Shown here one piece after another: positions 27,615 to 28,561 of a DNA stretch of 64,000 bases. Source of the stretch: Chitinophagaceae bacterium (lineage in GTDB: Bacteria; Bacteroidota; Bacteroidia; Chitinophagales; Chitinophagaceae); NCBI GenBank assembly GCA_003168265.1, contig PMSV01000024.1:124001-188000 (forward strand). The letters run 5' to 3'. Below the pieces are notes generated by a model. It did not search any database. It was not told the DNA's origin and saw only the letters and a program-made list of their open reading frames with translations. Every line of letters starts with the position of its first letter. The first letter of the stretch is position 1. Both the position numbers and the translations under genes were made by a program.

Positions 27615-27650
27615 CCAAAAACAAAAATGCCCTCCACTAACTGAAGGGCA
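27615..27650 (-). terminator. Intrinsic terminator downstream of the tRNA-like RNA
   Basis: On the minus strand TGCCCT (27650-27645) pairs with AGGGCA (27633-27628), followed by TTTTTGTTTTT (27627-27617). It is about 125 bases beyond the tRNA-like 3' end and no minus-strand protein gene lies between it and the RNA, so it is the likely end of that transcript. Confidence 0.65.
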
Positions 27651-27763: not shown

Positions 27764-27774
27764 GATTTTGTAAG

Positions 27775-27948
27775 CTGTAGAGGGAGGACTCGAACCTCCA
27801 CGGAGCGGTTAGCCGTAGCGCAATGTTGTGGTGGTCAACCCCAGTCGACCCCGCTTTTAAGGCGGGACCGGCATTACACTATATTTATCCCGTTATCTCC
27901 ACCCCCGAGACAAGAGGGCATGTCTGCCAAGATTTCATCACTCCACAG
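27775..27948 (-). ncRNA. tRNA-like RNA with an oversized variable arm (174 nt)
   Basis: Read from 27948 to 27775, the RNA has all parts of a class II tRNA: a 7-bp acceptor stem (TGTGGAG with CTCTACA, one G-T pair; an eighth pair is possible), U8, a Leu-like D-arm (ATG AAATCTTGGCAGA CAT with the GG pair), a 5-bp anticodon-like arm CCCTC-TTGTCTC-GGGGG (anticodon position GTC), and a canonical T-arm GGAGG-TTCGAGT-CCTCC. Between anticodon and T arms there are 101 nt instead of the usual 4-20, closed by TGGAG/CTCCG and holding further hairpins. One of these, CCCGC-CTTAAAA-GCGGG, looks like a Leu(UAA) anticodon arm. No CCA is encoded. Alternatives: a degenerate tRNA fusion, a YrlA-type tRNA mimic, or a tRNA with an unusual insertion. 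Boundaries follow the acceptor stem. Confidence 0.6.
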
Positions 27949-28090
27949 TGTTGTATCAATGAGCTTTGTAATGCAATATTAAAGAAAAGACGGCTATTTC
28001 TATAGTATTTTCAATAAAAATTTTGAATATTTAGAAAAATTCCAAATATTTGCCGTGTATTATAGATTGTTTTTAATAACTGACTGCTGA

Positions 28091-28561
28091 ATGGCTACTA
28101 AATTGAATCTCGACAAATTGGATCTGCAGATCATCCATGAGATGATGGAGAATGCCGAAATCTCCTATGCCGATCTAGGCAAGAAACTCTTCGTTTCAGG
28201 AGGCACCATACACGTACGAATCAAGAAATTGCAAGAGCTGAAGATCGTTAAAGGCACAAGGTTAAGCGTTGATGTGAAACAACTTGGCTACGACGTCATT
28301 GCTTTCATCGGCATCTACCTGGAAAAGAGCTCACTCTATGACGCGGTTGCAAAGGAATTGCGCAGGATTCCCGAGATCATCCGGCTCAATTACACGACGG
28401 GCAATTATTCCATGTTTGCGGAGATAGTCTGCAAGGACATCAATCAGCTCCGTTATGTCTTGCACGATGAACTCCAGAAAATAAAGGGTATCGAACGCAC
28501 GGAAACCTTTATCTCCCTTGAGGAAAGCTTTAACCGCAATGTCCAGGTTTACAAGGAGTGA
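28091..28561 (+). CDS. Lrp/AsnC-family transcription regulator
   Basis: A 156-residue regulator with an N-terminal helix-turn-helix (LDLQIIHEMMENAEISYADL, recognition helix about 35-50 with SGGTIHVRIKKL) and a C-terminal ligand-binding RAM/AsnC domain (about 70-150, ending RTETFISLEES). Such proteins bind amino acids and form octamers that bend DNA. A typical target cannot be read. It is divergent from the tRNA-like RNA, sharing an AT-rich upstream region of about 140 bases, and ends 4 bases before the convergent glycosyltransferase. Confidence 0.93.
   Translation: MATKLNLDKLDLQIIHEMMENAEISYADLGKKLFVSGGTIHVRIKKLQELKIVKGTRLSVDVKQLGYDVIAFIGIYLEKSSLYDAVAKELRRIPEIIRLNYTTGNYSMFAEIVCKDINQLRYVLHDELQKIKGIERTETFISLEESFNRNVQVYKE

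Follow-up and report, generated by a model that had tools for sequence, protein, structure and literature searches.

The minus strand of the window, as we call the whole 64,000-nucleotide stretch of a Chitinophagaceae contig analysed here, holds a sequence with the outline of a tRNA in which an extra arm takes the place of the variable loop. This raises the question of whether it represents a genuine RNA, whether such an RNA could take part in decoding, and what else it might do. The initial annotation had described the arms one by one, and these are present on the minus strand with the sequences it gave; the 101-nt insert (27901-27801) that it saw closed by TGGAG/CTCCG is real. Its first base, 27948, however, is the base preceding U1. 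The register adopted here has a 7-bp acceptor stem, TGTGGAG/CTCTACA, with T8 next and G73 at 27775 (Table 1).

Table 1. Positions of the tRNA-like RNA, its parts and its flanking elements in the window
Feature	Position	Strand	Support or remark
tRNA-like RNA	27774..27947	-	U1 = 27947, C74 = 27774; covariance model R1 and relatives
Acceptor stem, 5' strand TGTGGAG	27941..27947	-	near-invariant pairs U1-A72, G2-C71, U3-A70
Acceptor stem, 3' strand CTCTACA, with G73 and C74	27774..27782	-	
D arm, Leu-like; GG present, U20a absent	27920..27938	-	covarying 3-bp stem
Anticodon-like arm, 5-bp stem	27902..27918	-	stem covariation, loop counts
Loop TTGTCTC of anticodon-like arm (G34 U35 C36, U37, C38)	27913-27907	-	
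Extra arm replacing variable loop, 101 nt	27801..27901	-	closing stem GNNG/CNNC covaries
CGG-GATAAA, conserved internal-loop motif, 5' side	27884..27892	-	3-bp helix with 27806-27808 covaries
CTAA-CCG, conserved internal-loop motif, 3' side	27806..27812	-	same covarying 3-bp helix
Hypervariable hairpin holding CTTAAAA loop	27846..27871	-	sequence and length differ among relatives
GACTGGGGTTGACCACCACA motif	27827..27846	-	retained in most long members, missing in short ones
T arm GGAGG-TTCGAGT-CCTCC	27783..27799	-	covariation
TTTAATATTGC, likely -7 box of promoter	27973..27983	-	TAnnTTTG recurrence in relatives
AGCTCATTGATA, boxA-like element in leader	27954..27965	-	pattern recurrence in first-copy leaders
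Terminator-like hairpin and T run	27628..27650	-	
AsnC/Lrp-family regulator gene, divergent from RNA	28091..28561	+	Pfam, NCBIfam and PDB matches

A structured RNA and its relatives

ARAGORN made no call anywhere in the window, and Rfam gave no match there at gathering scores; a permissive Rfam search returned three weak matches far under those scores (tRNA-Sec, 15.9 bits vs 47). Non-coding RNAs with tRNA-like domains include YrlA and tmRNA. The latter was not detected by ARAGORN or by Rfam at gathering scores, and YrlA (Y RNA) had no Rfam match even with E up to 10; the RNA described here also differs from both in its intact acceptor, D, anticodon-like and T arms. Thermodynamic folding was rejected as proof of structure, the folding energy being unremarkable (z = -1.42; 20/200 shuffles equally good), and support comes from covariation.

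The covariance model used throughout, R1, was built from the window RNA and ten relatives. A DNA search of 58 related genomes located full-length copies (E ≤ 3e-49) in 28 of the 33 genus-level genomes, the window's own included; of the remaining five, G023 has its copy where a contig ends, and the other four genomes are 58-80% complete. Sixteen aligned relatives have standard pairs in 98.5% of pair cells, with both-side changes in 9 of 25 pairs. Among 58 distinct covariance-model matches, a set fitted to the model, 98.9% of cells pair and double changes occur in 15 of 24 pairs; in none of 500 shuffles were the percentage of paired cells, the counts of double changes or the covariation score as high as observed, and 83 of the 500 attained the number of further pair types. 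A second set of 104 distinct rows, likewise fitted to the model, shaped in part by the DNA pattern used to collect it and including two tRNA-Leu cross-hits, has double changes in 18 of 24 pairs. The five helices, those of the acceptor, D, anticodon-like, extra and T arms, all covary strongly. The cloverleaf of a decoding tRNA, with its 7-bp acceptor, D, 5-bp anticodon and 5-bp T stems, is present; in 13 of the 58 distinct rows of alignment A3, one pair of the anticodon stem is open.

Because this comparative evidence, covariation together with retention, decides the matter rather than folding energy, we conclude that the tRNA-like RNA is real, conserved and structured. The initial annotation had named a homologue search and a covariation check of the stems as its own test, and the outcome is favourable, with relatives in several Bacteroidota genera and all helices covarying in distant genomes. 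A pseudogene, mobile relic or assembly artefact would fit the tandem copies seen in some genomes and the silence of ARAGORN in the window, but the strong covariation, which we regard as decisive, the near-complete retention in the genus and the recurrence of both a promoter-like element and the local synteny make it scarcely credible.

Genera with relatives include Chitinophaga, Pedobacter, Mucilaginibacter, Dyadobacter and Algoriphagus. Across 395 genomes of the phylum, the best R1 scores of individual genomes form a bimodal distribution: 40 genomes exceed 90 bits, G128 has an 80-nt form at 70.8 bits, and the rest lie at or below 61 bits, for the most part with matches of about 87 nt. Matches of that length at these low scores look like ordinary tRNA-Leu and were left uncounted, and 41 of the 395 sampled genomes are RNA-positive. 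A DNA pattern scan of named genomes matched at least 119 stretches, with the laboratory species Dyadobacter fermentans and Chitinophaga pinensis among the records, and 78 of the 80 that were searched hold the RNA, in Chitinophagaceae, Saprospiraceae, Sphingobacteriaceae, Cytophagales and some MAGs labelled Flavobacteriales or Ignavibacteriales. Pattern matches in Nereida and Streptosporangiaceae proved to be without the RNA on search and look like chance. One MAG labelled Ignavibacteriales (L172:3129-3242) carries the RNA with a divergent AsnC gene, which may reflect transfer or misbinning.

Members are 80-214 nt long (median 144), the 80-nt form being an exception, and the window's RNA, with its 101-nt arm, lacks the normal-sized variable loop of decoding tRNAs. 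The suggestion of a tRNA with a novel insertion sits poorly with members of 112-130 nt, which retain the cloverleaf together with a short extra arm. A conserved GAUAAA/CUAA internal loop, which may resemble a UAA/GAN motif, is flanked by an additional covarying 3-bp helix; with 140 of 190 distinct sequences parsed, 19 of the 33 distinct combinations in this helix are fully paired, a result equalled by none of 2000 shuffles. Distal to the helix the arm varies freely, from a few nucleotides to about 90. The CTTAAAA loop, initially read as a UAA-type, anticodon-like loop, is not an anticodon, because it is hypervariable between relatives. Its hairpin was also considered as the anticodon arm of a tRNA-Leu(UAA) standing after an insert and was discarded, since it varies freely and the genome has a normal tRNA-Leu(UAA). 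The same variation speaks against a fusion of two tRNA relics, whose supposed second arm is almost gone in short members. Most long forms contain a GGGGUUGACCAC-like motif. The sequence GGGGUUGACCACY (window 27827-27846) is strongly conserved in long forms and could be a separate binding site.

Identity elements of the acceptor end and loop

In PMC9976931, G73, G34, U35, C36 and C38 are the five strong aspartate determinants, G1-C72 is termed crucial for aspartate identity, and G10 is a listed bacterial element. Among 186 distinct members, part of them fetched with a DNA pattern that fixes G34, U35, C36 and C38, the last three are each present in 186/186 and G34 in 182/186, with U, C or A at position 34 in the other four. 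In the fair subset of 92 members not fetched by that pattern, U35, C36 and C38 are each found in 92/92 and G34 in 88/92. G73 and C74 occur in 151/151 distinct rows of alignments A3 and A4. The five strong determinants of tRNA-Asp are therefore present in every row counted, save for G34 in those four members, and the original reading of GUC as an Asp-type anticodon turns out to be informative. The further elements G1-C72 and G10 are not maintained: the former is absent and the latter occurs in just 19 of the 68 rows of A3.

The first pair of the acceptor stem is U1-A72 in 150 of 151 distinct rows, followed by G2-C71 (151/151) and U3-A70 (149/151). According to PMC9976931, U1-A72 confers amidation of Asp-tRNA(Asn), and G1-C72 and U20a prevent it; recognition of U1-A72 by bacterial GatCAB is described in PMC4206432. 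The D arm contains GG[CT]A[AG] in all 188 distinct sequences parsed, two of which are tRNA-Leu, and an A follows C/U20 in all of them, that is, U20a is lacking. At the level of sequence, the RNA thus has what is expected of a GatCAB substrate, U1-A72 without G1-C72 and without U20a. Host tRNA-Asp has G1-C72; host tRNA-Asn has U1-A72 and G73. Because the five aspartate determinants and U1-A72 are near-invariant, the predicted properties of the RNA join an aspartate charging identity to an amidation signal, a combination absent from host tRNA-Asp. The two tRNA-Leu rows of A4 were dropped from the loop, acceptor and length counts and kept in the D-arm and second covariation counts, and relatives L072-L076, included in A1 and A2, were left out of the loop, acceptor, D-arm and length counts.

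Class II tRNA-Leu is among the known RNAs that come close in shape, and we agree with the initial annotation that the D arm is Leu-like; an arm at the variable position is also shared. However, G73 stands in place of A73 in 151/151 rows, the loop is of Asp type, and the arm is longer and differently built. Nor does the loop appear suited to translation. Position 37 is T in 161, C in 17 and G in 8 of the 186 distinct members, position 32 is T or C, and U33 is present in 161 and absent in 25, so that the U33 and purine 37 sought in a decoding tRNA are not conserved. Given these bases at position 37 and the variation at position 33, decoding by the RNA seems unlikely. The RNA would also be dispensable for decoding, as the window's genome has normal tRNA genes, including tRNA-Asp(GUC), tRNA-Leu(UAA) and five tRNA-Leu in all.

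Two further sequences were noted in this connection. A compact 80-nt relative (L120:2938-3016, minus strand), called tRNA-Asp(AUC) by ARAGORN, is without the extra arm and retains U1-A72, G2-C71, U35, C36, a pyrimidine at position 37, C38 and G73. The window's genome also contains a tRNA-like gene (L071:101-172) for which ARAGORN reports an incomplete anticodon (cg), possibly a degenerate tRNA.

The AsnC-family neighbour and the genomic distribution

The statement that nothing in the window explains the RNA fails, because an AsnC-family gene adjoins it in divergent orientation, with about 142 bp between its start codon and the 5' end of the RNA. The encoded protein matches Pfam AsnC_trans_reg (1.5e-16), its best NCBIfam model is AsnC (5.4e-47), and its best PDB match is E. 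coli AsnC 2cg4 (3e-32); at 159.5 bits it stays below the PRK11179 equivalog cut-off of 227 bits. From its similarity to E. coli AsnC, the protein may sense asparagine.

This arrangement recurs. A divergent AsnC gene accompanies the RNA at 65 of 83 loci, some of which overlap or share a genome, and at 48 of the 78 named loci, where several stretches are too short on one side for a decision. Among recurrent neighbours, in loci that mostly span 1.5-3 kb on each side, the AsnC family appears in 65 and the next family in 23, all in f1. In the 395-genome sample, AsnC (E ≤ 1e-41) is present in 41/41 RNA-positive vs 5/354 RNA-negative genomes; three of these five are f22 genomes without RNA and gatB, and two f24 genomes lie near the threshold. 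At 30 loci around AsnC or Lrp paralogues R1 found no RNA; seven belong to genomes with the RNA elsewhere, one to the RNA-less G059 and the rest to other families.

Upstream of the RNA, TAnnTTTG is present for 92 of 150 first copies, against 14.8 in single-base shuffles, and for only 1 of 36 downstream tandem copies, a pattern that fits co-transcription of the tandem copies found in several genomes. The window's own promoter-like copy is the shorter TAATATTG. Judged against what we assume to be the -7 box consensus of Bacteroidota promoters, TTTAATATTGC is likely such a box. Of the 150 leaders of first copies, 46 contain the pattern G[CT]TCTT[TA], against 3.1 in shuffles; for downstream copies the count is 6 of 36, against 1.0. 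The leader element AGCTCATTGATA was compared with what we take to be the boxA consensus, and the window's copy fits a looser form only.

Tallies of gatB, asnA, TIGR01536, canonical AsnB, asnS and glnS were made on 62 hand-chosen genomes, comprising 32 of the 41 RNA-positive genomes, 16 of the 60 RNA-negative genomes of the same class and 14 of the 294 RNA-negative genomes of other classes. With gatB alone standing for GatCAB, and with co-occurrence counts that are phylogenetically non-independent, gatB is found in 32/32, 0/16 and 14/14 of these, respectively. Its presence in RNA-positive genomes had been predicted in writing before the search, because the identity elements implied GatCAB; its absence from RNA-negative genomes of the class carried no advance prediction. 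A class-wide hand count from listings of genomes with matches (98 genomes of the 395) gives gatB in 38/38 RNA-positive vs 3/60 RNA-negative genomes (one-sided Fisher test within the class, 5e-24, relatives not being independent). The three exceptions are G097, with a full-length match, and G210 and G258, with weaker ones (~1e-105). RNA and gatB are missing together from genera g27 and g30 of f1 and g40 and g55 of f22, families otherwise RNA-positive, and from the large f24/f23/f30/f31 group.

The gene asnA is present in 3/32 RNA-positive genomes (G128, G218 and G222) vs 5/16 RNA-negative genomes of the class, canonical AsnB of the E. coli type in 0/32 vs 13/16, and at least one of the two in 3/32 vs 14/16. 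A link of the RNA to asnA, as in E. coli, was discarded, asnA being missing from 29/32 RNA-positive genomes. The prediction that these genomes would have no asnB failed for TIGR01536, as 27/32, the window's genome included, encode a longer AsnB-type protein above its cut-off; the statement holds for canonical AsnB only, a narrowing made after the TIGR01536 result. The longer proteins may also make asparagine, and given their presence in 27/32 genomes the RNA need not be its sole source. G206, G246, G305, G325 and G376 have neither an AsnB-type protein above the TIGR01536 cut-off nor asnA.

Among aminoacyl-tRNA synthetases, asnS is present in 32/32 and glnS in 26/32 RNA-positive genomes, which leaves GatCAB without an evident ordinary job in 26; in the other six, where GlnRS is missing, GatCAB is explicable without the RNA. 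The AspRS of the window's genome is bacterial-type, and no archaeal-type AspRS was apparent among the asnS matches listed for RNA-positive genomes. At two anticodon-domain sites, presumably those that matter, the AspRS of 12 RNA-positive genomes from the set of 62 has the same kinds of residue as that of 8 gatB-less relatives from this set, whose enzyme should be discriminating. Short extra asnS-like matches at G222:C2:595933-596853 and G443:C1:2542190-2542744 (f28), in frames of 346 and 195 aa, are perhaps synthetase paralogues.

Possible roles of the RNA

The RNA is probably a tRNA that has left translation and now serves asparagine synthesis. The bacterial-type AspRS of the cell would load aspartate onto it, GatCAB would convert Asp-RNA to Asn-RNA, and asparagine would leave by hydrolysis or transfer and enter the free pool used by AsnRS. 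AsnC would sense asparagine and set transcription of the RNA, much as E. coli AsnC controls asnA. With a separate RNA for this purpose, a discriminating AspRS could supply GatCAB, and misreading would not arise because Asp-tRNA(Asn) would never be formed. The extra arm may serve to bring AspRS and GatCAB together or to promote asparagine release. Taken in full, as a reusable, non-decoding RNA cofactor that is loaded with aspartate, amidated, freed as asparagine and placed under AsnC feedback, possibly with a role for its extra arm, and that replaces asparagine synthetase in much of Bacteroidota, the proposal is a tentative one that we hold to be plausible but somewhat short of probable.

Several observations count against a carrier: the absence of G1-C72, the low frequency of G10 (19/68) and the four of 186 members in which position 34 is not G; the coexistence of the RNA and asnA in G128, G218 and G222, and the six RNA-positive genomes without GlnRS; and gatB without the RNA in three genomes of the class and as a usual feature of other classes (14/14 tested). 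The main rival is that the RNA acts as a regulatory decoy, binding AspRS, GatCAB or both unproductively and tuning Asn-tRNA(Asn) formation via AsnC, which assumes a non-discriminating AspRS and a GatCAB acting on tRNA-Asn. Co-occurrence and synteny fit such a decoy equally, a U1-A72 pair where tRNA-Asp has G1-C72 could make the RNA better at binding than at being charged, and a structured, partly variable extra arm suits a regulator. Host tRNA-Asn could itself be a GatCAB substrate, since it has U1-A72 and G73, and genera with AsnRS, GlnRS, GatCAB and no asparagine synthetase, Bacteroidetes among them, are interpreted in this manner in PMC4206432. Against this, the conserved G73-C74 end and the full aspartate anticodon set resemble the constraints on a substrate. 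Sequestration of AspRS would also affect translation, and at the two sites that we presume to be relevant this enzyme is like that of gatB-less relatives. We consider a decoy unlikely, although it deserves serious attention.

Delivery of aspartate or asparagine to a lipid, peptide or cell-wall precursor, rather than to the free pool, would account for a loop unfit for decoding beside an intact charging end, and has a precedent in the non-proteinogenic tRNA-Gly of Staphylococcus aureus (PMC4052509). No shared transferase was noticed beside the RNA, however, in loci mostly spanning 1.5-3 kb on each side, and the exclusion with canonical AsnB points to asparagine supply, which makes this alternative improbable. 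It is highly improbable that the RNA is an AsnC-controlled small RNA that has a tRNA scaffold and pairs with mRNAs through its conserved loops: the promoter-like and terminator-like elements, the AsnC link and the conservation of the GUCUC loop and the GGGGUUGACCAC motif agree with this reading, but it leaves both the near-invariant acceptor-end pairs and the gatB co-occurrence unexplained.

The preferred reading, a carrier for asparagine synthesis, has counterparts in known systems. In E. coli, asnC and asnA form a divergent gene pair in which this kind of regulator controls an asparagine synthetase. The locus here would likewise set an AsnC-type regulator divergently beside an asparagine-making unit, which is asparagine synthetase A in E. 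coli and would be an RNA gene here. The non-discriminating AspRS and GatCAB of Bdellovibrio, Deinococcus and Thermus (PMC4206432) resemble the present case in having GatCAB beside AsnRS and GlnRS, in the U1-A72 amidation signal and in making asparagine from aspartate on an RNA, as proposed here; their carrier is the decoding tRNA-Asn, used by a relaxed AspRS, in contrast to a separate RNA that seems unfit for decoding and has its own aspartate identity. In the Staphylococcus aureus system (PMC4052509), tRNA genes have similarly been diverted from translation to another aminoacyl-transfer use; those are tRNA-Gly isoacceptors, whereas the RNA here bears an extra arm, lacks a matching decoding loop and is encoded by an AsnC-linked gene.

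Thus tRNA-dependent asparagine synthesis and tRNAs diverted from translation are already known, and the new part would be a carrier RNA devoted to this task and encoded by an AsnC-linked gene of its own; searches of a library of open-licence papers listed no prior description of this RNA. PMC4206432 counts Bacteroidetes among the clades with AsnRS, GlnRS and GatCAB and no asparagine synthetase, notes that it has yet to be clarified which tRNAs the AspRS enzymes concerned accept, and describes an assay with the E. coli asparagine auxotroph JF448 (asnA asnB). The RNA could supply the missing substrate and explain the retention of GatCAB. If the proposal is true, this RNA family would be an amino-acid-making carrier outside translation.

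Other loci of the regulator family show further arrangements. In G128 (L137:2030-2320), a promoter-like start and a terminator-like hairpin lie on the divergent side of the AsnC gene; R1 does not recognise the stretch between them, which is possibly another small RNA. In G059, AsnC is present together with canonical AsnB and AsnA, and both the RNA and gatB are missing; a short hairpin lies upstream of its AsnC gene in place of the RNA (L135:1000-1500). In an f24 genome (L138:1372-1446), a tRNA-Asn gene directly adjoins an Lrp/AsnC paralogue.
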